This document shows positions 494-48,965 of a stretch of DNA of 51,399 bases, one piece after another. Made by a program: the position numbers and the translations under genes. Origin of the DNA: a virus; IMG/VR virus record IMGVR_UViG_3300017950_000010, positions 1 through 51,399 of that record; one strand, written 5' to 3'. How positions within the stretch are numbered: position 1 is the first letter of the stretch; the number at the start of each line of letters is the position of its first letter. Below the pieces are notes generated by a model. It was not told the DNA's origin and did no database searches. It worked only from the letters and a program-made list of their open reading frames with translations.

Positions 494-565
494 TTATCCT
501 TTCCGTATACTATCTAGGATGAATGGGAAGGCGATTGCGAAGATAATAAATAGAGCGATACTCAT
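494..565 (-). CDS. Tiny single-pass membrane peptide (23 aa)
   Basis: ATG at 565 to TAA at 494 gives 23 residues: one hydrophobic helix (IALFIIFAIAFPFIL) followed by a short charged tail (DSIRKG). The start overlaps the stop of the 129-aa gene as ATGA, a classic translational-coupling arrangement, which argues that it is real despite its size. It resembles in size and layout other tiny hydrophobic peptides in this genome (1577-1675, 2232-2327, 43463-43519). The function is unknown. It could insert in the inner membrane and disturb or modify it, but this is inference. Confidence 0.5.
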   Translation of the reverse strand: MSIALFIIFAIAFPFILDSIRKG

Positions 566-951
566 GAGGCTTGCCTTTCGAGGATAGCCATATCGATACG
601 TTGTTGTATCTCTTTCTTAGCATCTTCAATTAGTGCAGAGGCAAACCTGCGGTCTACCATTTTCTTCTCGGTATCACTTAAGAGTTGATAATCGTCGTTC
701 TCATAAGTGAGTACTGCAATACCGTTATCAAGGAAGAACTCATCAAAGTTCTCAATGAGGTTCTCCCAGAAATCCTTATAGATAGGATCGTCAATAACTT
801 CGAGGAGAGCTTCATCTATTCCCTGTTCATACAGGTATTCATAGTGAAGTTCAAGGTGTTCATCCTCAATAGTATTAGCGAGAGGATCGATGATAGGGTT
901 AGCTAACATCATTGTTTGGATTGCGATGTCCATTTCTTTATAACGCGACAT
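562..951 (-). CDS. Hypothetical acidic protein (129 aa)
   Basis: The frame starts MSRYKEMDIAIQTM and ends ILERQAS. It is strongly acidic in the middle (IEDEHLELHYEYLYEQ, then ENFDEFF) with a more basic helical C-terminus. No signal peptide, membrane segment or metal motif is seen. AAAGGAAA lies 6-13 nt upstream of the ATG. It is the first gene after the hammerhead ribozyme at 972-1046, so its mRNA would begin with the ribozyme's 3' product. It lies directly after ssDNA-binding protein in the replication operon. A role in DNA metabolism or as an acidic DNA mimic is possible but unsupported. Confidence 0.7.
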   Translation of the reverse strand: MSRYKEMDIAIQTMMLANPIIDPLANTIEDEHLELHYEYLYEQGIDEALLEVIDDPIYKDFWENLIENFDEFFLDNGIAVLTYENDDYQLLSDTEKKMVDRRFASALIEDAKKEIQQRIDMAILERQAS

Positions 952-971
952 AACAGTTTCCTTTCAATAGA

Positions 972-1046
972 GAAGTCTGTCTCATCAGGCGTAGGAGACA
1001 ATACCTACACGACTCCCCGAAGGGAGTTTCGACTTTAGAAGTCTTC
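972..1046 (-). ncRNA. Hammerhead ribozyme, type II arrangement (downstream of SSB)
   Basis: On the minus strand the full hammerhead core is present in order. Stem II 5' half is GTC (1033-1031), followed by GAAA (1030-1027). Stem III is A-C-TCCC, a TTCG loop, and GGGA-G-T (1027-1012). The cleavage base is C (1011). Stem I is GTGTAGG/CCTACGC (1010-1004 with 995-989), followed by CTGATGA (988-982). Stem II 3' half is GAC (981-979), with an outer GAAG/CTTC pairing at 1043-1046 and 972-975. Every invariant core base (CUGANGA, GAAA, A-U, H17) matches. Predicted cleavage is between 1011 and 1010. The 5' stem II strand overlaps the SSB stop codon. Confidence 0.85.
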
Positions 1047-1484
1047 AGAAGCCTCGATGCTATCGAAATCAACTGATTCGGTTGGTTCATACTTAACTAA
1101 ATCAATCACTTGAACAGCGGAGAGACGAGTAATAATTTGTTCTCCACGAGGATAAGTGAATACCTTAACGGAACCTTTAGAACCGTTACCGATACACTTA
1201 GCATCACCGTACTCAGCACGGAAGTCTGCCTTATCAGCGGTGACTACTTCGACCTTAACGGCTTTACCCTTAGCACCCTTAGCGTAACGCTTAAAATTAA
1301 TCGCTACACCACCCTCAACTTCACGGACCTTACCGAAAGCTTCAAGTTCTTTACGACGTTTCTTAGGTACTACTACCTGAACATCGTACACTGGATCACC
1401 ACCGAAAGGGGCGTGAGGTGTATCGAGGAAAGCGTAGTTCAAAGTTACGTCGCGGATGATAGATGTTTTGATTGTGTTTGTCAT
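1035..1484 (-). CDS. Single-stranded DNA-binding protein, T7 gp2.5-like
   Basis: 149 aa. The N-terminal part looks like an OB-fold of the phage SSB type: a beta-rich start (MTNTIKTSIIRDVTLNYAFL), then a DPVYDVQVVVPKKRR strand with basic residues and a lysine-rich loop (KRYAKGAKGKAVKVEVV). The C-terminus is acidic and ends in phenylalanine (DFDSIEASEDF), the hallmark tail by which gp2.5-type SSBs contact polymerase and helicase. It would coat ssDNA at the fork and recruit the replisome. GGAGA precedes the ATG. The gene is bracketed by two hammerhead ribozymes, so its mRNA may be excised as a separate message. The family assignment rests on fold-like pattern and tail, not on a search. Confidence 0.75.
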   Translation of the reverse strand: MTNTIKTSIIRDVTLNYAFLDTPHAPFGGDPVYDVQVVVPKKRRKELEAFGKVREVEGGVAINFKRYAKGAKGKAVKVEVVTADKADFRAEYGDAKCIGNGSKGSVKVFTYPRGEQIITRLSAVQVIDLVKYEPTESVDFDSIEASEDF

Positions 1485-1511
1485 AATAAATCTCCATTAG
1501 TTTATGACTAT

Positions 1512-1583
1512 GAGGATCTGCCTCGTCAGTGCAGAGAGATCATTCTCTACAGACGCCCTAAGGCGTTTCGGCTTGGTTAATCC
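1512..1583 (-). ncRNA. Hammerhead ribozyme, type II arrangement (upstream of SSB)
   Basis: On the minus strand: stem II 5' GCC (1572-1570) and GAAA (1569-1566). Stem III is A-C-GCC, loop TTAG, GGC-G-T (1566-1553). The cleavage base is C (1552). Stem I is TGTAGAG/CTCTGCA (1551-1545 with 1536-1530), followed by CTGACGA (1529-1523). Stem II 3' is GGC (1522-1520), with outer GGAT/ATCC pairing (1583-1580 with 1517-1514). All invariant hammerhead bases are present, and paired bases differ from the copy at 972-1046 with pairing preserved. Predicted cleavage lies between 1552 and 1551. The element overlaps the stop codon of the 32-aa gene and precedes the SSB start by about 30 nt. Confidence 0.85.
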
Positions 1584-1675
1584 CAATGTGCTATCGTGAT
1601 TATCGCAATCGTTCCAGCGATGAAGAATCCGAATGGGGCGAAAAGTAAGGGGTGAGTTAAGATAAATTCTAACAT
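1577..1675 (-). CDS. Tiny membrane peptide (32 aa)
   Basis: ATG at 1675 to TAA at 1577 gives MLEFILTHPLLFAPFG followed by a second hydrophobic stretch (FFIAGTIAIITIA) and HWD. It has one long or two short membrane helices. A strong ribosome site (AAAGGAG) sits 8 nt upstream of the ATG, which supports a real gene. It is the first gene of the visible leftward operon, upstream of the ribozyme and SSB. Its stop codon lies inside stem II of the ribozyme, so ribosomes finishing this gene could influence ribozyme folding. The function is unknown. Confidence 0.55.
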   Translation of the reverse strand: MLEFILTHPLLFAPFGFFIAGTIAIITIAHWD

Positions 1676-1680
1676 AGTAG

Positions 1681-1872
1681 TTCTCCTTTCAAGAGAGTCC
1701 AAGCGAGCAAGTCGCAACAAAGAAGTAAGGGGGGTTCGAAATCAGAATAGGGTACTTAAAATAACATCTATACTTTCTTAGTCTCTCTTAAAGCTACCCC
1801 CCTAAGTTTTCTACGATTTCGCCTAGAATTCTATAAGTCCCTATAAGAAACTTTTATTAAAAGGAGAGGCCC
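1681..1872. promoter_or_regulatory. Divergent intergenic control region
   Basis: This gap separates the leftward replication operon from the rightward structural genes and should hold promoters for both. Rightward, CTATAAG occurs twice exactly 10 bp apart (1831-1837 and 1841-1847), just upstream of the first structural-side gene. That suggests a promoter or operator read on one face of the helix. Complementary runs AGGGGGGT (near 1725) and ACCCCCCT (near 1797) could form a long-range stem. On the minus strand AGTATAGATG (around 1770-1780) is another TATAG-like core. I see no strong sigma70 promoter here. Confidence 0.4.
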
Positions 1873-2232
1873 ATGCCTAGAATTGATCATAACGCTCGTC
1901 GCCGCGCTAGGCACGGAAACCTTCGCACTAACGGTGCGACCCCCCGAACTACTAGAGAAGTACAAACTGGTCGCGAAAAAGATAAAATTAGTTTTAAAGG
2001 TCACGCGCTAATAAAGAAAAAAGAATCTCCAACGGACTCAATGCGAGCTCGCAGTGTAGGTCGGGTAGTACTTGCTGGTCCTAAAGAACCAAGGAAGCCT
2101 ACTACTACTAAGACCCCAGAGAAAACTATGAAAGTAGGGAAGCCAGGTTATAACCGTAAAACTGTAGAAGTTAAAGATAAAGCCCCACAAGCTAAACGTA
2201 AACGTCGGGGACCTCCAGGGAAACGTCGGTAA
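1873..2232 (+). CDS. Highly basic hypothetical protein (119 aa)
   Basis: First rightward gene, with AAAAGGAGAGG before the ATG. The protein is extremely rich in arginine and lysine throughout (N-terminus IDHNARRRARHG, C-terminus KAKRKRRGPPGKRR-like) and in proline. It has almost no hydrophobic core, so it is probably disordered. Such composition suits binding to DNA, RNA or another acidic partner. It could be a packaged DNA-condensing protein or a regulator. I recognise no family. The stop overlaps the start of the next tiny gene as TAATG, so both are translated together. Confidence 0.7.
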   Translation: MPRIDHNARRRARHGNLRTNGATPRTTREVQTGREKDKISFKGHALIKKKESPTDSMRARSVGRVVLAGPKEPRKPTTTKTPEKTMKVGKPGYNRKTVEVKDKAPQAKRKRRGPPGKRR

Positions 2233-2327
2233 TGCCCCTAAGTATTTCGTACGTAGAAGTATTAATACTAATTGGAGTTTGGCTTAATACCTTTATAAAC
2301 ATCTACAAATTTTTTAAGGAAGATTAA
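2232..2327 (+). CDS. Tiny membrane peptide (31 aa)
   Basis: The start codon shares its A with the stop of the preceding gene (TAATG), so reinitiation is likely. The 31 residues run MPLSISYVEV, then a hydrophobic helix (LILIGVWLNTFI), then a basic/aromatic tail (NIYKFFKED). This is a single-pass membrane peptide of the same style as those at 494-565 and 1577-1675. The role is unknown. A small lysis accessory or membrane-remodelling peptide is conceivable. Its own Shine-Dalgarno is weak, so expression should depend on the upstream gene. Confidence 0.5.
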   Translation: MPLSISYVEVLILIGVWLNTFINIYKFFKED

Positions 2328-2328
2328 A

Positions 2329-2358
2329 ATGGCTAAATCTAAACGGAGGAAGACCTAA
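2329..2358 (+). CDS. Possible nano-ORF (9 aa, basic)
   Basis: A nine-codon frame, MAKSKRRKT, follows AAGGAAG at good spacing, and its stop overlaps the next start as TAATG. It contains the GGAGG ribosome site of the downstream 85-aa gene. Translating it may expose or occupy that site, making it a leader peptide rather than a functional product. It could equally be chance, because a purine-rich ribosome site naturally reads as Lys/Arg codons. Confidence 0.25.
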   Translation: MAKSKRRKT

Positions 2359-2615
2359 TGGCAAACCTTATAATAAAAGTAACAAACTCAGGCGCTACGG
2401 ATATTGACGAAGCAGCTGCTGGTACTTCTACTTTTTACGGATTAGACTCTGGTTCACACTTTCATACAAGCATTGCTGATCCAACTACAATTATAGAATT
2501 TGACGTTCATAAAAGCGGCGGTTCAATTTTTACTTATGTTGGTACGGCTACTTTAAAAATCGAACTAGGTTACATTGGGGCTCGCGGAGTATTTGATGTA
2601 ATCCTTAGTAGTTAA
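2358..2615 (+). CDS. Small beta-rich protein, paralogue of the post-capsid protein (85 aa)
   Basis: The protein is beta-strand rich with no charged clusters and ends FDVILSS. It clearly resembles the 77-aa protein encoded at 22965-23198. Both start M-x-L-x-x-K-x-TN, have an AA-x-x-S-x-FY-x-L segment, a TTI motif, an L-x-I-x-x-G strand, and end FD-x-(I/L)LSS. The other copy sits directly after the major capsid gene, where decoration or head-fibre proteins are often found. This copy may therefore be a second capsid-associated protein, although it lies before the terminase. GGAGG lies 10 nt upstream. The function is inferred from position only. Confidence 0.7.
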   Translation: MANLIIKVTNSGATDIDEAAAGTSTFYGLDSGSHFHTSIADPTTIIEFDVHKSGGSIFTYVGTATLKIELGYIGARGVFDVILSS

Positions 2616-2626
2616 GGATTAATATA

Positions 2627-4261
2627 ATGAAGAACAAGAGGACACTTGAGCTTCTTAAAGAGAAAGCTAAACGGGACGCCCTCAAGGTGTACGAAGGGGA
2701 CTTCGAAAAATTTTCTGCGGATAACATTAAAATCCTCACCAAAGATTCCTCCCAAGGTTTTGTCCCCTTCCTCTTTAACGAACCCCAACGGGTAATCAAT
2801 GAAGCCATTGATAAACAAATAGAGGAAACTGGTCGCGTACGCGTCATCATCCTCAAAGCGCGGCAGCAAGGCATATCTACCTATTGCGCTGCGCGGGTAT
2901 TCTGGAAGACTTACTTTACAGACTATTCCAAGTCGGTAGTGATGGCTCACGACAGTGCTACTTCGGATGCACTATTTAGTATGAGTCGAAACATTATTGA
3001 TAATATGCCCCCCGACTTAAAACCTACTCTCCAAAAGTCTAACGCTAAAGAAATCTTATTTGAAGAGAATAAAAGCGGTTACCGTCTATACACTGCTGGT
3101 TCGCCAGAAGCTGGACGAGGAACTACCCCTACCATTGCCCACCTTTCCGAGGTTGGTTTCTGGACTCACGACGAGAAAATTCTTGCGGGACTCTTTCAAG
3201 GGATCTCCCAAGCTGAAGGTACTGAGGTAATCTTAGAATCAACGGCTAACGGGGCTTCAGGAGAATTCTGGCGTCTCTTCCAAGGAGCGGCTAACGGGGA
3301 GAATGAGTATCTCGCAGTTTTCATTCCTTGGTTTGCAACTGAGGAATATCGACGCGACGCCCCTTCGGGGTTTGAGAGAACCGTAGAAGAAGATGAATTA
3401 GCTGAGAAGTACGATTTAGATGATGAACAATTATATTGGCGTCGCCTAAAGATTGCGGAAGGCGGTGAGAATAAGTTTCGGCAGGAGTACCCAGCTACGG
3501 CTGAGGAAGCATTTATTGTTTCGGGTAACACAGTATTCAACCAAGAGAAACTTAATGATCTCATAGCTACAGAAGCTGAAGCATTCAGAGAATTCAATCC
3601 GATGACGGGCGAATTTGTAGAAGCTAAAGAAGGCTCCCTAGAAATCTGGCAGTACCCTCAATTCGATGTACCCTTCATTATTGCAGCTGACGTAGCCCAA
3701 GGTGTAGGGAAAGATTATTCTTGCGCAGTAGTTATGAACTCCAATAGGGAAGTTGTAGCTATGTACCGAAATAACAGAGTAGACCCCACTGAATTTGGGG
3801 AGATTCTTTTTTATTTAGGTCGCTACTTCAATAATGCTTTACTATGTGTCGAATCGAATAGTATTGGTTTAGCTACGCTATTAAGGCTAGACCAAATGAG
3901 ATATGTCAACTTATACTACCAAGCTAGGATAGCTGATCTTTCTTCTGCGGAAGGTATTCGACCTGGATTCAAAACTACTATGTCAAGCAAACCGCAGATT
4001 ATTGGCTTACTCCAAAATGCGGTGAACGAAGATGATATACGTATTCCTTCAAAAACAATTATTAAGGAACTCAAAACTTATATATCCAGAGATTCTGGAA
4101 AGATGGAAGCCATGGCTGGTTGTAACGATGATACTGTTATGGCTTGCGCTATGGGTTTAGAAGTTTTGAGGACCCACGGAAACAAACTTACAAACGATAG
4201 AGTGTCATGGAGAGACCGCATAGGCGGTGCTATTATAAATGACGATACCAACTGGTTATAG
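2627..4261 (+). CDS. Terminase large subunit
   Basis: 544 aa. The N-terminal ATPase has a Walker-A-like loop in the variant form KARQQGIST (about residues 84-92), preceded by a VIIL strand. The C-terminal nuclease has an RNase H-type acidic triad: FIIAADVAQGVGKDYS (first Asp), CVESNSIG (Glu), and CNDDTVMA (Asp-Asp). These mark the motor that pumps DNA into proheads and cuts concatemers. The length is typical for the family. The start has only a weak purine-rich site. It is placed before the candidate small subunit and far from the portal, an unusual order since the small subunit normally precedes the large one. Confidence 0.92.
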   Translation: MKNKRTLELLKEKAKRDALKVYEGDFEKFSADNIKILTKDSSQGFVPFLFNEPQRVINEAIDKQIEETGRVRVIILKARQQGISTYCAARVFWKTYFTDYSKSVVMAHDSATSDALFSMSRNIIDNMPPDLKPTLQKSNAKEILFEENKSGYRLYTAGSPEAGRGTTPTIAHLSEVGFWTHDEKILAGLFQGISQAEGTEVILESTANGASGEFWRLFQGAANGENEYLAVFIPWFATEEYRRDAPSGFERTVEEDELAEKYDLDDEQLYWRRLKIAEGGENKFRQEYPATAEEAFIVSGNTVFNQEKLNDLIATEAEAFREFNPMTGEFVEAKEGSLEIWQYPQFDVPFIIAADVAQGVGKDYSCAVVMNSNREVVAMYRNNRVDPTEFGEILFYLGRYFNNALLCVESNSIGLATLLRLDQMRYVNLYYQARIADLSSAEGIRPGFKTTMSSKPQIIGLLQNAVNEDDIRIPSKTIIKELKTYISRDSGKMEAMAGCNDDTVMACAMGLEVLRTHGNKLTNDRVSWRDRIGGAIINDDTNWL

Positions 4262-4271
4262 GAGATATGAA

Positions 4272-4664
4272 ATGAAAGGAAAACATCCAGTTTCAGACAA
4301 ATCATTATCAAACCTTAACCCGATTACCTCCCCAGAAATGGCTGAAGAATATCGTAAGAAAGGTTTAGAAACTCGTATGCGTAATAAAGCTATTCGCGAA
4401 GAGATTAAAGAGAAAATGGAACAACTAGCGAAGGTCATTAAGGAAGATGAGAATTCATTCTCAGCCCTAGATGTCCTCCGTTATAATATGTACGAAGCAC
4501 TTGAAGAAGGTGATAAGAGCGAAGCTACCCGTATTGCAGCTATCATAGCAGAATACGAAGCACCCAAACTACAACGTCAAGAAGTTAATCAGACTATCAG
4601 TACATCTGATTTGTCGGACGAAGAGTTGGAAGTAGAAATCGCAAAGCTTACCTTAGTAAAGTAA
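4272..4664 (+). CDS. Putative terminase small subunit (130 aa)
   Basis: I chose ATG 4272 because GGAGATATGAA precedes it; a longer frame from 4239 overlaps the terminase and has no ribosome site. The product is helical and charged (residues 20-60: EYRKKGLETRMRNKAI, REEIKEKMEQLAKV). It ends with a DLSDEELEVEIAKL-like segment, the short acidic C-terminal helix common in phage small terminases. Position next to the large subunit supports a DNA-recognition role in packaging. It lies downstream rather than upstream of the large subunit. It could instead be an unrelated helical protein. Confidence 0.5.
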   Translation: MKGKHPVSDKSLSNLNPITSPEMAEEYRKKGLETRMRNKAIREEIKEKMEQLAKVIKEDENSFSALDVLRYNMYEALEEGDKSEATRIAAIIAEYEAPKLQRQEVNQTISTSDLSDEELEVEIAKLTLVK

Positions 4665-4688
4665 TTCGTACGCATAGAAGAGGACACT

Positions 4689-4934
4689 ATGTATACGATA
4701 TACACAAAAGACACATGCGGCTACTGTGAGAAGGCCGAGAAGTTACTCCAAGATAATTATCTTGAGTATGAGCTTATCGATGTGAACTCAGACCCCGAAA
4801 CTCTAAAAATGTTTAAGAGTCGGAAATGGTCTACTGTTCCCCAAATTATGAAAGGGAACTTGCACATCGGTGGGTACGAACAACTCAAGACACACTTATC
4901 TAATAAATATTACAAATCAGTTTACTCGGAGTAA
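4689..4934 (+). CDS. Glutaredoxin
   Basis: 81 aa, the size of a classic glutaredoxin. It starts MYTIYTKDTCGYCEKAEKLL with the redox pair CGYC at residues 10-13. It has the cis-proline motif TVPQI (about residue 54) and the GGYEQL glutathione-binding segment near residue 65. It would pass electrons from glutathione or thioredoxin reductase to the ribonucleotide reductase encoded 6 bp downstream. The two are surely co-expressed for dNTP supply during replication. GAGGACACT precedes the start. Confidence 0.93.
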   Translation: MYTIYTKDTCGYCEKAEKLLQDNYLEYELIDVNSDPETLKMFKSRKWSTVPQIMKGNLHIGGYEQLKTHLSNKYYKSVYSE

Positions 4935-4940
4935 CTACTA

Positions 4941-6803
4941 ATGGACACATATCAAAAATTTATTCACCTCTCACGTTACGCTCGTTGGGATGAAGAAACA
5001 CAAAAACGAGAGAGTTGGGAAGAAACGGTTACGCGCTACTTAAATTATTGGGGCGACCGTTTGAGCCAAGAAGATTACTCCGAACTTTACAAAGCGATTC
5101 ACTCAATGGAAGTAATGCCTTCTATGCGTTGTCTTTGGAGTGCTGGCGAAGCCCTCCAGAAGAATAACGTAGCAGGCTTTAACTGCTCATTTCTAGCTGT
5201 AGATTCCCCACGAGCCTTCGATGAAGCACTTTATATTCTAGCCAGCGGTACTGGTGTAGGCTTTAGTGTCGAAGCTAAGTTTGTGTCTAAGTTACCTATC
5301 GTAAACGATACTTTCACTCAAACCGAACGGGAGATTGTAGTTGGCGACTCTAAAGAAGGCTGGGCAAAAGCCATCCGAAAACAAATTGCCGACCTATATC
5401 TTGGTCAAGTACACCAGTGGGACTACTCAAAGGTACGACCCGCAGGAGCTCGGCTTAAGACGATGGGAGGACGGGCCAGCGGTCCTGAGCCTCTTATGGA
5501 CCTCATGGGTTTCATCGATAGAACTTTTAAAGGAGCCTCTGGACGAAAGCTAAATCCGATTGAATGCCATGACATCATGTGCAAGATTGGTGAGATTATT
5601 GTCGTTGGCGGTGTACGCCGGAGCGCTATGATTTCGCTTTCAGACCTTGGAGACCCTCAAATACGTGACGCTAAAAGCGGTAACTGGTGGGAACACTACG
5701 GTCATCGGGCACTAGCTAATAATAGTGCTTGCTACGAAGTAAAACCGGATATGGAGACTTTCCTAAATGAATGGACCGCCCTTGTCAAAAGTAAATCGGG
5801 AGAGAGAGGCATATTTTCGCGCGTTGCAGCTCAAGCAAAAGCGAGAGAGAATGGCCGCAGGGAGTCTGATTGGGACTTCGGAACAAACCCTTGCTCAGAA
5901 ATTATTCTGCGACCAAATCAATTCTGTAACTTATCGGAGGTAGTCGCTCGTGAAAAAGATACGAAAGCTAGCCTCAAGCGCAAAGTACGGTTGGCAACAA
6001 TTCTTGGCACACTACAAGCAACGCTTACGGACCTTCCCTACTTGCGAGCAGTGTGGAAACGCAATACTGCCGAAGAGTCACTGCTCGGAGTGTCTCTCAC
6101 CGGAATCCAGGATTGCCCCCTCCTCCATAACCCAGACGCGAAACTCCTGAAGGAAATGAAAGATGTTGCTATCGAAACAAATAAGGAATGGGCTGAGAAA
6201 TTGGGAATCCCCCAGAGTGCAGCTATCACTTGTATTAAGCCATCCGGTACTGTTTCGCAGCTTGTCAATTCTGCATCAGGTATACACGGGCGTTTTTCTC
6301 CGTATTACATTCGTACTGTGCGACAAGATAACAAGGACCCTATCACTGATTTCTTAAAAGATTCAGGGGTTCCAAACGAACCTTGCGCTATGAAACCGAA
6401 TAGTACTACTATCTTCAGTTTCCCCATTAAGTCTCCAGAAGGAGCCATTCTAGCTAACGAACAACCAGCCCTCGAACAACTTGAGAACTGGAAGAACTTT
6501 GCAGTGAACTGGTGTGAACATAAACCATCAGTAACCATTTACGTCAAAGACGAAGAGTGGTTGGAAGTTGGAGCTTGGGTTTATAGTAACTTCGAAATTT
6601 GTTCTGGCATTTCATTTCTCCCTTACAGCGATCATACGTATGCACAAGCACCGTATCAAGATTGTTCTGAAGAGGATTATGAAGCAGCCTTTGCAGCTTT
6701 CCCCTCCCAAATTAATTTTGGGGACCTCGTTAATTACGAAAAAGAAGATAACACGGAAGGCGCTCAAACACTTGCATGTGTAGCGGGGGCTTGTGAAATT
6801 TAA
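4941..6803 (+). CDS. nrdJ: Adenosylcobalamin-dependent (class II) ribonucleotide reductase, monomeric type
   Basis: 620 aa. It converts ribonucleotides to deoxyribonucleotides with a B12-generated thiyl radical. Diagnostic residues are visible. NCSFLAVDSP near the N-terminus carries the first redox cysteine, followed by ASGTGVGFSV. The active site is NPCSEIILRPNQFCNLSEV, holding Asn, the radical Cys, Glu and a second Cys 11 residues on. The C-terminal redox pair is ACVAGACEI (two Cys, 5 apart). This matches the monomeric Lactobacillus-type enzyme, somewhat shorter than its roughly 740 residues. It needs B12 from the host, a trait seen in marine podoviruses. It follows glutaredoxin and directly abuts the 2OG oxygenase gene. 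Confidence 0.92.
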   Translation: MDTYQKFIHLSRYARWDEETQKRESWEETVTRYLNYWGDRLSQEDYSELYKAIHSMEVMPSMRCLWSAGEALQKNNVAGFNCSFLAVDSPRAFDEALYILASGTGVGFSVEAKFVSKLPIVNDTFTQTEREIVVGDSKEGWAKAIRKQIADLYLGQVHQWDYSKVRPAGARLKTMGGRASGPEPLMDLMGFIDRTFKGASGRKLNPIECHDIMCKIGEIIVVGGVRRSAMISLSDLGDPQIRDAKSGNWWEHYGHRALANNSACYEVKPDMETFLNEWTALVKSKSGERGIFSRVAAQAKARENGRRESDWDFGTNPCSEIILRPNQFCNLSEVVAREKDTKASLKRKVRLATILGTLQATLTDLPYLRAVWKRNTAEESLLGVSLTGIQDCPLLHNPDAKLLKEMKDVAIETNKEWAEKLGIPQSAAITCIKPSGTVSQLVNSASGIHGRFSPYYIRTVRQDNKDPITDFLKDSGVPNEPCAMKPNSTTIFSFPIKSPEGAILANEQPALEQLENWKNFAVNWCEHKPSVTIYVKDEEWLEVGAWVYSNFEICSGISFLPYSDHTYAQAPYQDCSEEDYEAAFAAFPSQINFGDLVNYEKEDNTEGAQTLACVAGACEI

Positions 6804-7325
6804 ATGATTAAGAAATATCCTTTTAAAATTGAAGAAGAGACTAAACTTCTTTTAGAAAGTAAAGTGATGTCTTATTTAAAAACTACTTGTACCACTGAAC
6901 TTCATAATATTTCTATCTTAAATGATTTTCCTTTAGTATTATCTCAATTAAAAGAAGTTTTAAAAGAATATACTAAAGGTTTTAATTTCGATTTTCTATT
7001 AACGAAATCTTGGGGGATGCTACTTACACCTTCTACGCCGGACACGATATTACATTCTCATGGTTATTGCAATTTTTCTTTTGTATTTTATACTAAGAAA
7101 GAAGAAGGTTCAAATATTGTTTTTAAAGATTTAAATCATATTCATTTTGAAGTTCCCGCTGGAGAAGACGAAATTATTGTCTTCCCATCTTACTTACCTC
7201 ATTACATTAGAGGTAATAATAAAGAGACAAGAATTTCTTTTGCGGGAGATATCCTAGTCACTGCGTTAAAAAAAGAGAATCATTCAGAATTTTTAACGCC
7301 AGTTGAAACTTGGATTAAACTTTAA
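6804..7325 (+). CDS. 2OG-Fe(II) oxygenase family protein (173 aa)
   Basis: Residues around 95-155 hold the double-stranded beta-helix features. LHSHGYCNFSFVFYT gives the first metal histidines region. SNIVFKDL and a proline-glycine turn (VPAGEDEIIVFPSYLPHYI) carry the distal histidine. NKETRISFAGDI has the 2OG-binding arginine. This pattern matches the phage 'putative 2OG-Fe(II) oxygenase' group common in marine viruses; substrates are generally unknown. The gene starts immediately after the reductase stop with no clear ribosome site. It is much richer in A/T at third positions than its neighbours, which suggests separate acquisition. Confidence 0.75.
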   Translation: MIKKYPFKIEEETKLLLESKVMSYLKTTCTTELHNISILNDFPLVLSQLKEVLKEYTKGFNFDFLLTKSWGMLLTPSTPDTILHSHGYCNFSFVFYTKKEEGSNIVFKDLNHIHFEVPAGEDEIIVFPSYLPHYIRGNNKETRISFAGDILVTALKKENHSEFLTPVETWIKL

Positions 7326-7377: not shown

Positions 7378-7995
7378 ATGTTTAGATTAATAATTATTTG
7401 GCTCCTCTCAATTAATTTAGCTTTCGCTCAAAATGAACAGGTTGGAGATTTAAATACTAATACCCAAAATAGTACTGTCAACAGTAATAACCCTAGTACA
7501 AGCGAGACTATTAATTACAATGGACAAGGTTCCTCTTCGCAAATACCAGTTAACACTGCGGTATCTCCAAGCTATATGAGTAATGGATCTGATACTTGTC
7601 TCATTGGTTCTAGTGGTGGTGTTCAAGTTAATGTACTTGGAATCTCCGGTGGTTTTTATAGGCAAGACCCTGAGTGTAATCGGCGTAGAGACTCTAAGAC
7701 TCTGAAAGATTTAGGTATGAACATTGCAGCTATTGCGCTTATGTGTGAAGAAAAGGAAGTTTGGCTTTCCATGTTTAAAAGTGGAACACCCTGCCCAATA
7801 TCTATTAATGGTAAATTAATTGTAGGGAAAGCGGCGTATTACACTATGAAGAAAAATCCGGAAGTATTCATTCCAGATTACGAAGATAATGAGGATTACT
7901 ACAAATTAACTCTACAATTGGAGAAACCTAATGAAGAAAATTCTGATAGTAACCTTTCTATTTCTGAGCGCTACCGCACAAAGCTTCGCAAGTGA
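7378..7995 (+). CDS. Secreted or periplasmic protein with signal peptide (205 aa)
   Basis: ATG 7378 is chosen over an in-frame ATG at 7303 because ATAAGGAG precedes it and it begins with a clear signal peptide (MFRLIIIWLLSINLAFAQ) with an Ala-Phe-Ala cleavage site. The following 60 residues are Asn/Ser/Thr-rich and probably disordered. They are followed by a conserved-looking domain with SGGVQVNVLGISGGFYRQ, several cysteines (DPECNRRR, ALMCEEK, GTPCPIS) and a helical segment. The cysteines suggest disulphides in the periplasm. I recognise no function. Its 3' end overlaps the next gene, also secreted, by 65 nt. Confidence 0.75.
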   Translation: MFRLIIIWLLSINLAFAQNEQVGDLNTNTQNSTVNSNNPSTSETINYNGQGSSSQIPVNTAVSPSYMSNGSDTCLIGSSGGVQVNVLGISGGFYRQDPECNRRRDSKTLKDLGMNIAAIALMCEEKEVWLSMFKSGTPCPISINGKLIVGKAAYYTMKKNPEVFIPDYEDNEDYYKLTLQLEKPNEENSDSNLSISERYRTKLRK

Positions 7996-8695
7996 AATTG
8001 AAAACTTATTGAATATTAGTAAAACCCTTGCTAACAAGAAAAATCAAGCTCAATATCTTATGGGATACATCGATTACACTGGTCACTCAGGTGAAATCAT
8101 TGCTAATGATGGGATACTACCCTTATTAATTTCTCCTCAAGAACTTGAAGATTACAACGCTGCTTTAGAATCGGTTAAAAGCGCAGTTATTTATAATACG
8201 CAAATGCTTCTCCTAGATGCTCATGTAGATTCTATTGATAATATGCACAATGCTATTGATACTTTTTCGGATGCAGCACAAGAACTTGCAAAGCTTGATG
8301 CTGTAGTTTCTATTGCAGAACAAGCTAATACTATAGAACAAAAAGTAGAAGTTCAAAATTTTGTTAAAACAAATGACGTCGAAATTACGCAACAAGAAGT
8401 GGATAACTACAATAACTCACTTACGGAAGTTGTATCATACGCTCAACAAGCAGCTGGTTTCTTACAAGCTAGTATGAATACTGATATCACAACAACCGCC
8501 GACGCACAATTTGAATCTTTCAATACTAACACAGCTACAGTATCTGCTTCTTACTCTGCAGTAAATGATCAACTCTTGTTAGCTTGGGATAATGGTAGTA
8601 ATACTCTTTCATTCACAGATTACTTCTCTGCTAATTTTATTAGCCAAAGTGAACTTCTTGGAATGGGACAAAGTATTTATGATGGGCCACAATAA
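7931..8695 (+). CDS. Secreted helical protein with signal peptide (254 aa)
   Basis: It starts MKKILIVTFLFLSATAQSFA, a textbook signal peptide ending SFA/S. The mature part is largely helical with Gln/Asn/Ala-rich heptad-like runs (residues 90-170), suggesting a coiled coil. It ends with a beta/aromatic segment (FTDYFSANFISQSELLG). The start lies inside the end of the previous gene, so the two are coupled. With 7378-7995 it forms a pair of exported phage proteins expressed before the tail genes. They could modify the host surface (for example superinfection exclusion) or be virion parts matured in the periplasm. The function is unknown. Confidence 0.7.
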   Translation: MKKILIVTFLFLSATAQSFASEIENLLNISKTLANKKNQAQYLMGYIDYTGHSGEIIANDGILPLLISPQELEDYNAALESVKSAVIYNTQMLLLDAHVDSIDNMHNAIDTFSDAAQELAKLDAVVSIAEQANTIEQKVEVQNFVKTNDVEITQQEVDNYNNSLTEVVSYAQQAAGFLQASMNTDITTTADAQFESFNTNTATVSASYSAVNDQLLLAWDNGSNTLSFTDYFSANFISQSELLGMGQSIYDGPQ

Positions 8696-43774: not shown

Positions 43775-46105
43775 CTAACAGAAAAAGTATTTTGAATTGT
43801 ATACATTGTTAATCTCTAAAGAACCTAATGAGGCTTCTGTCTCAAAGCTATCAGGGTCAGTTAACAATGCTTCCTTAATCTCATTGTAATAGTTTGCATT
43901 ATCGTAAAGCCGCACGAAGTAATCGCGGACTAACGTATTTAATTTTGTAATGTCGCAAGCGTGAGTAGAGAAGCTATCGTGTACGGCCCCGAAAGAACCT
44001 TCCCATTCAGAGGCTACCAACATTAAATGAGCAGCATCTTGTGAATGAATAAAGTTAGGGGAGATACCAGATATGTATGCTCCAATGTCAGCTATGTGAG
44101 TATCTACTCTACCTACGTGTTTAATTTGTTTCCCAGCAATACGCCCACGATGCTTAATAGCTTCTTGTCGGTTCCGCTGGTATATCACTAGGAAATTAGA
44201 TGGAGTCCACCATTGAAGATGAACATTCCGGTCATCTATTTCCTTCCGGTAATTCACTTGATGTACCGCAGCCTCTTGAAGAAACGCCATTGTAGCTAAA
44301 GGACCAGGACAAACCCTATCGATAGCCTTAATGATACACTGTGCTAACCCTATACAGTCGATCATAGTGATGCCATACTTATCTGTATAGCCCTCCTTAT
44401 AACAATCTGCATACATACTCACAGACATCCTCTTTGCCCCACAGGAGTATGCTCTAGTCATAGCGGCACGTTTAGCAATACCCTTTCTAATATCTCTCAT
44501 GGGCATTGACTTGATTATGCTTATTAGGCGTTCATCATTATTCTCTTGGACTACTGTGTAGAGTTCTTTGGCTACTTTAACGTAGAAGTCCGATTGAATC
44601 TCAGTGTCAATAAGCGATACTAACTTACCAGCTTGTTCATCCTTAGATATAGCAGCAAGGTGTTGCCAACCATTATTAGATCCATCGATAGGGATAGGGA
44701 GATAAGTAATGTGGTCAGGCCCATCATTCTGTACATGAATCATTTCAATACAAGCAGCGAGGAAGCTAAACGCTTTCTCCCCGTGGAGTAAACCTTCTTG
44801 GGCTGTCCTATTAATTAAATTTAAGTTACTATAAGTCCAACGCGCCCTATCTTGTAGGGTCATCTTATCAACTGAGATAGACCGGAGTCCTTCTGAGAGG
44901 AGATAAGCTTTATAATCTGAAGTAACCCACTCAGGGATGTCATCGATCTCGTATGATTGATTGTAAGAAGTAGCTGTATGAATAGCAAGCCATTTAATAC
45001 CGTCTTCCCCAATACGTTTACCATCAGCAAACATCATGAGACCCCTAGCAAGGTCGTTACCTTGAAAGTTAAGGTAAGGCTCAATGAAATATAATCGACC
45101 CCGATAATCAAAGTCAGCGTATTGCCAGAAGACAGTACTGCCGATAGCCTCAGCTTTGTGGAGGATAGTTTTCATAGCGTAATTCTTAGACCTCGCTCGG
45201 AGGACTAGTAATTTCTTATTCCACTTAAGTGTAGCTTCATTATAAGCCTCTTGGTTTTCTTTAGTATCTTCCTTCATCAACTTTGAAAGAGCAATCTTAA
45301 CATCTGATGGGTCGCCTTCCTCTGGCATATCAGTTTCTTCATGAAGGATTTCTTGGAAGCGATCTTTGACTACCTTAAGGACATCTTGGTTGATACCCCA
45401 AGGAGTCTGTTGAATTACATTTAAACCCTGAACGAACTCACTAGTCTTCATCTCGTAATCTTGGAAGGTAGTTATGTATTCTTTATCCCAACCCTTAATA
45501 AGACTCCGAGGCCCCGTAGGGGTATTCTGAAATAAAGCAGTGACCTTCTGAGGCTTCTCAAAAGAAGTACCTATTAAAATCTTCTTATCAATAGTGGCGT
45601 CATCCTTAAGGGAAGCCCAAGTATCAGTTGCCCTTAGAGCGTAGGGTACGTTAAGTAGTTTAACGTTGTACTCAGGGTGTGTCTTATAAGTGTCAGGGTA
45701 AATCTTCTTGAGTTCACCCATGTAAGCAATGCGAGCCTCCGTTTGTTCGGAACCCCGAATGAGGTCTGAGTAACCCGTAGCGACTACTGAGTCGAGGATA
45801 CAATCGCCAATGCGAAGATGATTCCTAAAGTCTTCCTTAGGTTTATCTACCCCATACTCCAGTCCGATTCTCCGACAAATTTCTCTTCCAATAGCTGTAG
45901 ACACAGTAGTAAGACGAGCGTATCCATACGGGAATTCCTCGTCGTATTTATTATAGTGTGTTCCTAAAGTATCTAGTCCAGTCATAATGAATTCAACGAG
46001 GCGGTGTTCGTGCTCTCGGAGAATCTTAGAACCAGGGTTTGCTTTAGGATTATTAATGTTAACAGATTCAACCTTAAGTTTTAAATGGTCTACAATGTCC
46101 TTCAT
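43775..46105 (-). CDS. T7-like single-subunit DNA-directed RNA polymerase (776 aa)
   Basis: All family motifs are intact. DxxGR occurs in ADFDYRGRLYFIEP, followed by NFQGNDLARGLMMFADGK. Motif A is PIPIDGSNNGWQHLAAI. Motif B is RDIRKGIAKRAAMTRAYS, holding Arg, Lys and Tyr at the usual spacing. Motif C is GAVHDSFSTHA. The region SPNFIHSQDAAHLML precedes motif C as in T7. Shorter than T7 (883 aa) mainly in the N-terminal domain. It would transcribe the phage's middle and late genes from its own promoters. Unlike in T7, where it leads the early region, it is near the end of the leftward operon. GAAGGACTC precedes the ATG. Confidence 0.96.
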   Translation of the reverse strand: MKDIVDHLKLKVESVNINNPKANPGSKILREHEHRLVEFIMTGLDTLGTHYNKYDEEFPYGYARLTTVSTAIGREICRRIGLEYGVDKPKEDFRNHLRIGDCILDSVVATGYSDLIRGSEQTEARIAYMGELKKIYPDTYKTHPEYNVKLLNVPYALRATDTWASLKDDATIDKKILIGTSFEKPQKVTALFQNTPTGPRSLIKGWDKEYITTFQDYEMKTSEFVQGLNVIQQTPWGINQDVLKVVKDRFQEILHEETDMPEEGDPSDVKIALSKLMKEDTKENQEAYNEATLKWNKKLLVLRARSKNYAMKTILHKAEAIGSTVFWQYADFDYRGRLYFIEPYLNFQGNDLARGLMMFADGKRIGEDGIKWLAIHTATSYNQSYEIDDIPEWVTSDYKAYLLSEGLRSISVDKMTLQDRARWTYSNLNLINRTAQEGLLHGEKAFSFLAACIEMIHVQNDGPDHITYLPIPIDGSNNGWQHLAAISKDEQAGKLVSLIDTEIQSDFYVKVAKELYTVVQENNDERLISIIKSMPMRDIRKGIAKRAAMTRAYSCGAKRMSVSMYADCYKEGYTDKYGITMIDCIGLAQCIIKAIDRVCPGPLATMAFLQEAAVHQVNYRKEIDDRNVHLQWWTPSNFLVIYQRNRQEAIKHRGRIAGKQIKHVGRVDTHIADIGAYISGISPNFIHSQDAAHLMLVASEWEGSFGAVHDSFSTHACDITKLNTLVRDYFVRLYDNANYYNEIKEALLTDPDSFETEASLGSLEINNVYNSKYFFC

Positions 46106-48179: not shown

Positions 48180-48312
48180 CTTCTTCTAAAACCTTTCTTA
48201 GTACAGATAAAAAACCTTCAGCTACAAGCATCTCAAGTTCTTGACCAGTAGCTTTTAAGGTAACAATAGCGGAGCCATCGTTCTCTTCAATTACTTCTGT
48301 AATCTCTATCAT
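48154..48312 (-). CDS. Small hypothetical protein between endonuclease and primase (52 aa)
   Basis: ATG 48312 overlaps the GIY-YIG gene stop (ATGA), and AAGAGGTGG precedes it. The product starts MIEITEVIEENDGSAIVTLK and continues with a helix (QELEMLVAEGFLSVLRKVLE). It is acidic, soluble and ends inside the start of the primase gene (26-nt overlap). Coupling on both sides supports expression. It may be a replisome accessory. No family is recognised. Confidence 0.6.
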   Translation of the reverse strand: MIEITEVIEENDGSAIVTLKATGQELEMLVAEGFLSVLRKVLEEDVSGTIQD

Positions 48313-48965
48313 GTCCACCTCTTAGCGTTAACAATACGTTCATGTCGTTCTTTATCAAAGCCTAATCCAAGATGAGAAGCGCGAATACGTTTCTCCGCTT
48401 GTTTATTAGCGTAATCATCTCGGAATAAGGCGTCCCGAAGATATATCTCTCGCATCTCATAAGCATTAAGTTGTCCTGGTGTTGGGAGGCTATATAGGAT
48501 ACGGCCTTCAACATCATCAATGTTTAACTCTGAGAAGTCTCCTGAGCCTGTATATTGTTTCCAATCAGGCTGGGAGAACTTCTTAGAGCCTACGTAGATA
48601 CGACCAGTAGTTTTATCTTTAAGTTCATAAACAAAACCGATATGATGAGGGTCTACTAGTTCTTTATTAGGTAGCTTCCAGTGACCGTAATCACCTTCAT
48701 TAATCTCATCGACTATATAGTCATCCTTCTGATATGTTTCAAATGCTACATACCATCGGCGTCCATCGCGGGTACAAAGGGTTAACGGCCCTTCCCATCC
48801 ACGTTTTAATTGGAGAGACTTATATAAACTCTCCTTACACCAGAGAACCCCTTCCGAAGAAGACAACTTACGATCGCCCCCTTTCGGTTGCGGCGCTGCT
48901 GTAATCTTTAAGCGGTCATACCTGATGAATGTGTAATCACCCATTTCAAATGTCCTAGATGTCAT
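48309..48965 (-). CDS. GIY-YIG-type endonuclease (218 aa)
   Basis: The C-terminal half has the GIY-YIG core: GFVYELKDKTTGRIYVGSKK, then QYTGSGDF, a catalytic-type Glu in AYEMREIYLRD and a conserved Asn in DDYANKQ. The N-terminal 110 residues form a separate domain of unknown type, rich in aromatic and basic residues. It sits in the replication operon where T7 carries its endonuclease I, so it may resolve branched DNA or degrade host DNA, by inference. It overlaps the exonuclease gene by 11 nt. It could also be a domesticated homing enzyme. Confidence 0.7.
   Translation of the reverse strand: MTSRTFEMGDYTFIRYDRLKITAAPQPKGGDRKLSSSEGVLWCKESLYKSLQLKRGWEGPLTLCTRDGRRWYVAFETYQKDDYIVDEINEGDYGHWKLPNKELVDPHHIGFVYELKDKTTGRIYVGSKKFSQPDWKQYTGSGDFSELNIDDVEGRILYSLPTPGQLNAYEMREIYLRDALFRDDYANKQAEKRIRASHLGLGFDKERHERIVNAKRWT

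Follow-up and report, generated by a model that had tools for sequence, protein, structure and literature searches.

Background

Type II hammerhead ribozymes with a pseudoknot are found in bacteria, where clusters of them flank single prophage genes (Perreault et al. 2011, PMC3088659). In that study, tandem hammerheads cleave in vitro, the triple arrangement of A. tumefaciens also does so in E. coli, and 4 of 18 consensus hammerheads tested gave no cleavage in the assay used; the authors propose that hammerheads process long phage transcripts (PMC3088659). The study also describes HHphage hammerheads of the haloviruses HF1 and HF2, in which a mapped transcript 5' end lies at most 3 nt from the cleavage site (PMC3088659). 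A 2017 review lists the role of type II hammerheads as open (PMC6155905).

The locus described here is part of a viral stretch of 51,399 nucleotides (IMG/VR record IMGVR_UViG_3300017950_000010), called the window below. It contains two type II hammerheads, ribozymes A and B, around a gene for a gp2.5-like single-stranded DNA-binding protein (SSB). The bacterial and prophage examples (RF02276) set out in PMC3088659 have the same permutation, core and loop I-tail pseudoknot, and likewise form clustered copies around single phage genes; relative to them, the host phage group and the flanked gene are new. HHphage, as described there, is likewise a hammerhead of a lytic virus and lies a few bases ahead of a gene for DNA replication (a helicase), but it occurs only once and its core is altered, whereas the cores in the window are canonical and two copies surround one gene.

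Two further systems are similar in part. Single-subunit phage RNA polymerases produce long RNAs, and the early RNA of T7 is cut between genes by host RNase III. These T7 sites resemble the present junctions as intergenic cuts in long phage RNA that leave hairpin-capped mRNA ends, but the RNA in the window is predicted to cut itself without host RNase III, giving 5'-OH and 2',3'-cyclic phosphate ends. The RiboJ-type insulators of synthetic biology are also hammerheads set before a ribosome-binding site, where they trim the 5' end so that a hairpin remains. However, they are engineered elements, derived from a hammerhead of a plant satellite RNA that has another permutation, whereas the element in the window is natural, type II and pseudoknotted.

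Two hammerhead ribozymes flank an SSB gene

Ribozyme A is a type II hammerhead, predicted to cleave in the cell. An earlier note, made from the letters of the window, had proposed a hammerhead here on the minus strand, and the Rfam check bears this out: ribozyme A scores 44.6 bits against Hammerhead_II (RF02276) with cmscan, above the gathering score of 37 bits, with positions 1573-1512 (-) covering the full-length model (1-66). The E-value is 5.6e-6 over the window and all of Rfam, and 1.3e-9 when the record is searched with this single family. The R1 model, which includes the copy itself, gives 83.5 bits. The core CUGANGA, the GAAA and a cleavage triplet of the NUH type (GUC) are all present, and stems I and III are closed by loops while stem II is open, as in type II hammerheads (helices 1 to 3 are paired in 97-100% of cells in the alignment of relatives).

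Table 1. Features of the SSB locus and its surroundings in the window
Feature	Coordinates	Strand	Remarks
Type II hammerhead ribozyme A	1512..1573	-	Junction of 32-aa ORF and SSB gene; predicted cleavage 1552/1551
Ribozyme A, stem II	1572-1570/1522-1520	-	GCC/GGC, bases read directly
Ribozyme A, GAAA	1569-1566	-	
Ribozyme A, stem III	1566-1562/1557-1553	-	5 bp
Ribozyme A, cleavage base	1552	-	C, triplet GUC
Ribozyme A, stem I	1551-1545/1536-1530	-	7 bp
Ribozyme A, CTGACGA	1529-1523	-	Its second C is the non-conserved position N7
Ribozyme A pseudoknot	1515..1541	-	5 bp; loop I GAUCU 1541-1537 with 3' tail AGAUC 1519-1515
Type II hammerhead ribozyme B	971..1034	-	Junction of SSB gene and 129-aa gene; predicted cleavage 1011/1010
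Ribozyme B pseudoknot	975..999	-	Loop I GUCU 999-996 with tail AGAC 978-975; co-varied relative to ribozyme A
gp2.5-like ssDNA-binding protein gene	1035..1484	-	149 aa; phrog_112 E 3.2e-10; sole gene between both cleavage sites
32-aa ORF upstream of ribozyme A	1577..1675	-	Conserved: 91% identity in L002, 100% in L130
129-aa gene downstream of ribozyme B	562..951	-	ORF with no assigned function; conserved, 53-87% in L002, L003, L004 and L124
Single-subunit phage RNA polymerase	43775..46105	-	phrog_414 E 2.2e-107; phrog_2166 N4-like

The bases read (Table 1) agree with the note's order of stem II, GAAA, 7-bp stem I and CTGACGA, and its predicted cleavage site is correct, the cut falling after the C of a directly read GUC. 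Its placement of the ribozyme start within the stop codon of the 32-aa gene was mistaken: the TAA occupies 1579-1577, and stem II opens 4 nt past it, at 1572. A start inside the upstream stop codon is true for many relatives, such as phage CRP-7. The note also lacked the pseudoknot, both strands of which are kept on the downstream cleavage product, and its account of an SSB mRNA cleaved upstream, although right about the site, was half of the picture, as it overlooked the second ribozyme after the SSB gene.

Ribozyme B scores 42.3 bits against RF02276 in a permissive Rfam scan (E 2.2e-5) and 82.1 bits with the R1 model, in which this copy too is included. It begins just past the TAA of the SSB gene and stops ahead of the ribosome-binding site of the 129-aa gene, and its stem III carries a cUUCGg tetraloop. 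In the minimum-energy fold of positions 971-1035, the final A of the SSB stop belongs to an alternative stem (AAGUC/GACUU), whose formation would compete with that of the pseudoknot. Ribozymes A and B are the only RF02276 matches in the record, 14 control genomes gave none, and other Rfam families have no more than weak, sub-threshold matches in the window or CRP-7. Minimum free energy alone does not discriminate the two ribozymes (z of -1.7 and -1.9), and promoter and terminator scans found no more than chance.

The note's assignment of the flanked gene to SSB is supported by the phrog_112 match (Table 1) and by an acidic C-terminus with an aromatic end (...EASEDF). SSBs of related lineages with an SSB-flanking ribozyme end in ...EDF or ...DFDF; among relatives, the phrog_112 profile matches those of L124 (3.9e-9) and L003 (1.2e-7), and is weak for CRP-7 (1.8e-3) and L148 (2.9e-3). 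The source phage is of the T7-like kind, and its RNA polymerase, DNA polymerase, primase-helicase and SSB genes lie on a common strand. Amid the replication genes, a protein at 48309-48965 has weak matches to homing endonuclease (1e-6) and NAD synthetase (4.5e-8) families. No direct terminal repeats of at least 20 bases, as in a circular contig, occur at the contig ends.

Conservation and covariation in relatives

Type II hammerheads number three each in the related contigs L002, L003 and L004, two in L124, and one each in L148, L150 and Roseobacter phage CRP-7 (L001, MK613349.1). Ribozymes go unmentioned in two roseophage papers, of which one describes CRP-7. The 129-aa protein as query recovered only two further contigs, both already known. 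By the earlier note, a mutated invariant base in close relatives would have spoken against the ribozyme, but all invariant core positions are kept in the 11 distinct sequences, and N7 alone varies within the core.

The covariation that the note suggested looking for is present in the stems and in the pseudoknot. Among the 11 distinct sequences, 96.9% of stem and pseudoknot cells are paired, compared with 76.2% in shuffled alignments and 31-53% when the partners are slid, and both-side changes occur in 45 cells versus 12.0 in shuffles. The covariation score is 0.598 versus 0.185, and the slid controls fail. Stem I has both-side changes at all 7 pairs. Of the pseudoknot cells (helix 4), 89% are paired, and two of its pairs have changed on both sides; the pseudoknot appears as GAUCU/AGAUC in ribozyme A, GUCU/AGAC in ribozyme B and GAACU/AGUUC in some relatives. 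The invariant catalytic bases and the compensatory changes elsewhere show that selection acts on the folded RNA. Related SSB genes in L155 and L006 have no detectable ribozyme, so it is presumably dispensable in some lineages.

L192 (9837-10292), L193 (10059-10376) and CRP-7 (7832-8218) each have another SSB-like gene farther down the strand, with 37-41% identity to the SSB of the window, and no ribozyme was detected adjoining any of the three. The annotated start of CRP-7 gp02 (619-621) is the AUG within the ribozyme core CUGAUGA, but translation probably begins at the ATG at 658, behind GAAAGGAT. The annotated start of UOF82099.1 in L129 (MW202801.1, 6049-6051) is likewise the AUG of CUGAUGA. 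We do not favor this AUG as a real start, as in-frame open extensions occur in about 21% of cases, near chance by our own informal estimate. Gene callers may thus mask type II hammerheads by placing starts inside the ribozyme. CRP-7 has two more junctions with hairpins, at 310-420 and 1110-1200, that have in common a CCTGTAATGGG core followed by TAATCCTG and that match no Rfam family.

Probable processing of the SSB transcript

The motif, core, covariation, position and recurrence of ribozymes A and B are observed features of the locus. We consider it likely that the two hammerheads process a polycistronic mRNA and leave a hairpin at both new ends, much as RNase III does in T7; cleavage in the cell, protection of the ends and a benefit to the phage are what the sequences would predict. 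The leftward transcript, which the RNA polymerase of the phage probably makes as a long polycistronic RNA, would carry one self-cleaving type II hammerhead per gene junction around the SSB gene. Each would fold once transcribed and cut after GUC, so that gene-sized mRNAs arise. Points against this reading are the 4 of 18 consensus hammerheads that gave no cleavage in the assay of Perreault et al., the alternative stem of ribozyme B, and the SSB genes of L155 and L006, which have no detectable ribozyme.

The upstream RNA would end as stop codon-GCC-GAAA-stem III hairpin-UC>p, and the downstream RNA would start with a 5'-OH and the stem I hairpin and retain the loop I-tail pseudoknot. Judging from the order of the strands, both new ends would keep an intact hairpin because type II hammerheads open at stem II, and this is the sole permutation for which that holds. 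A separate SSB mRNA is probable because hammerheads flank the gene on each side. The predicted excised RNA (1551-1011) is 541 nt long and contains the SSB gene alone; it would have a 5'-OH end with hairpin and pseudoknot, and a UUCG hairpin right after the stop codon. The likely benefit would be independent stability and expression of each gene, with both products protected from exonucleases.

Position relative to stop codons

An exact-core pattern was used to survey viral contigs (with stem II as GCC/GGC or as GTC/GAC) and one genome per bacterial or archaeal species, and the matches listed include at least 301 type II hammerheads on contigs of viruses and bacteria. Stems I and III covary strongly in 131 distinct viral copies among these matches, and a pseudoknot of at least 4 bp can form in 87, versus 20 with shuffled tails. 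The nearest upstream ORF on the strand of the ribozyme commonly has a stop codon that ends no more than 4 nt ahead of stem II and no more than 1 nt into it. Among the matches listed, this rule applies to 67 of 101 (66%), 98 of 131 (75%) and 36 of 59 (61%) copies with both stems, but to none of the 46 matches from bacterial genomes that are stem-less and to 2.3% of random anchors. The first set suggested the rule, and the two others were added afterwards as replication, with the limits unchanged.

Most commonly, among the matches listed, stop codon and ribozyme are immediately adjacent, or stem II begins with the G of a TAG stop. Upstream stops within the ribozyme are rare (2-7% of the matches listed). 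The next start codon is usually 20-36 nt past the ribozyme and mostly has a Shine-Dalgarno-like sequence, although the choice of genes favors such starts (again among the matches listed). With a stop codon at one side and a Shine-Dalgarno sequence and start codon 20-36 nt away on the other, the ribozyme fills the gene junction.

Within 6 kb of a 71-kb viral contig (L202, IMGVR_UViG_3300036851_000550, 1077-7043), nine type II hammerheads lie on one strand, several directly abutting stop codons, and the genes around them include one for a 361-aa protein probably of the DUF932 family. Seven with a GTC/GAC stem II occupy 3 kb of the viral contig L219 (8402-11317). SSB as a general partner of type II hammerheads was rejected, as the genes in the survey are varied and mostly of no known function. 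Among the matches listed, phrog_112 was found in 3 of 129 surveyed proteins, one of them the window's own, and only the ribozymes of L124 and L022, among 301, directly precede an SSB of the window family.

The stop-codon rule is a strong constraint, for which any functional theory must account. One explanation is a translation-gated switch, in which a ribosome finishing the upstream ORF would cover the 5' strand of the ribozyme, delay or block cleavage, and thereby set SSB expression. The highly nonrandom start of the ribozyme at the stop codon (61-75% versus 2%, among the matches listed) fits this idea, as does the rarity of stops inside the ribozyme in the same matches, which suggests that ribosomes are kept out of it. 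Nevertheless, we regard such a switch as unlikely. Compact packing of junctions would give equal positions, and the downstream side is tight too; ribozyme A itself starts 4 nt after the stop. Because folding is intrinsic and cleavage irreversible, a transient ribosome would merely delay the cut, and there is no sign of a ligand-binding or alternative domain.

Gene exchange at ribozymes

In L002, the genes follow one another as 32-aa gene, 137-aa gene, SSB and 129-aa gene, with a ribozyme at each of the three junctions, whereas the window has 32-aa gene, SSB and 129-aa gene, with ribozyme A at the first junction and ribozyme B at the second. On its left, ribozyme A has the flank of the first L002 copy (82% identical) and on its right that of the second (99%), and the two converse pairings do not rise beyond background or near it (50-56%). 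Diagnostic bases place the switch from copy 1 to copy 2 inside ribozyme A. L002 and L004 have the first ribozyme and the sequence downstream of it in common (87%), and the genes before it are unrelated (51%). Before the SSB gene, L003 compared with L002 or L004 is 52-54% identical on the left and 90-95% on the right. Therefore, each difference in gene content just upstream of the SSB gene breaks at a ribozyme, in a small sample of four phages. A gene-order swap between L124 and L004 was dropped, as the 95-aa and 102-aa genes involved have no demonstrated relationship.

These hammerheads are short, conserved and repeated, and for that reason could act as joints where genes are gained, lost or swapped. 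Phage type II hammerheads might, tentatively, mark the borders of insulated gene cassettes, each hammerhead running from the stop codon of one gene to just ahead of the next ribosome-binding site and cutting the message into hairpin-capped ends, and might also be joints at which genes are exchanged with expression unbroken.

Alternately, recombination could be the main benefit, with near-identical border ribozymes serving as homology for the gain, loss or swap of cassettes and cleavage being secondary. The composite flanks of ribozyme A, the L002/L004 and L004/L003 gene replacements that break at a ribozyme, and the greater similarity of ribozyme copies within a contig (77%) than between contigs (66%), which base composition may inflate, are all consistent with this proposal. 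However, homology alone needs neither invariant catalytic bases nor compensatory changes, and recombination can be a consequence rather than a cause of ribozyme retention. It is thus quite unlikely to be the main benefit.

Other explanations and significance

Perhaps the excised RNA is joined into a circular SSB message by the host ligase RtcB. By established chemistry, the predicted 5'-OH and 2',3'-cyclic phosphate ends are RtcB substrates, and two ribozymes surround exactly one gene. Yet separate hairpins would cap the two ends, with no common stem to hold them together, and a search by Perreault et al. (2011) for circular or ligated RNA from tandem hammerheads gave no such product (PMC3088659), so a circular message is very improbable. 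That ribozymes A and B are chance matches or inactive relics is more improbable still: pattern matches missing one or both stems do exist in bacterial genomes (62 of 122 among the matches listed), but here two matches above the gathering score lie in one operon, covariation is present, and conservation is deep (the CRP-7 SSB is 28% identical to that of the window, and the ribozyme region is 84% identical as DNA).

Processing of the mRNA by the two hammerheads thus remains the reading that we prefer. Type II hammerheads are known as a kind, but little appears to have been written on their strict position just past stop codons or on a role as joints where genes are swapped. The literature searched, which takes in little of the subscription literature, states neither the stop-codon rule nor breakpoints at ribozymes, and these two general observations may be new. 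As a test case the phage is compact: a single defined replication gene lies between its two ribozymes, its natural relatives carry from one to three of them, and the cultured phage CRP-7 has a related ribozyme-SSB junction.
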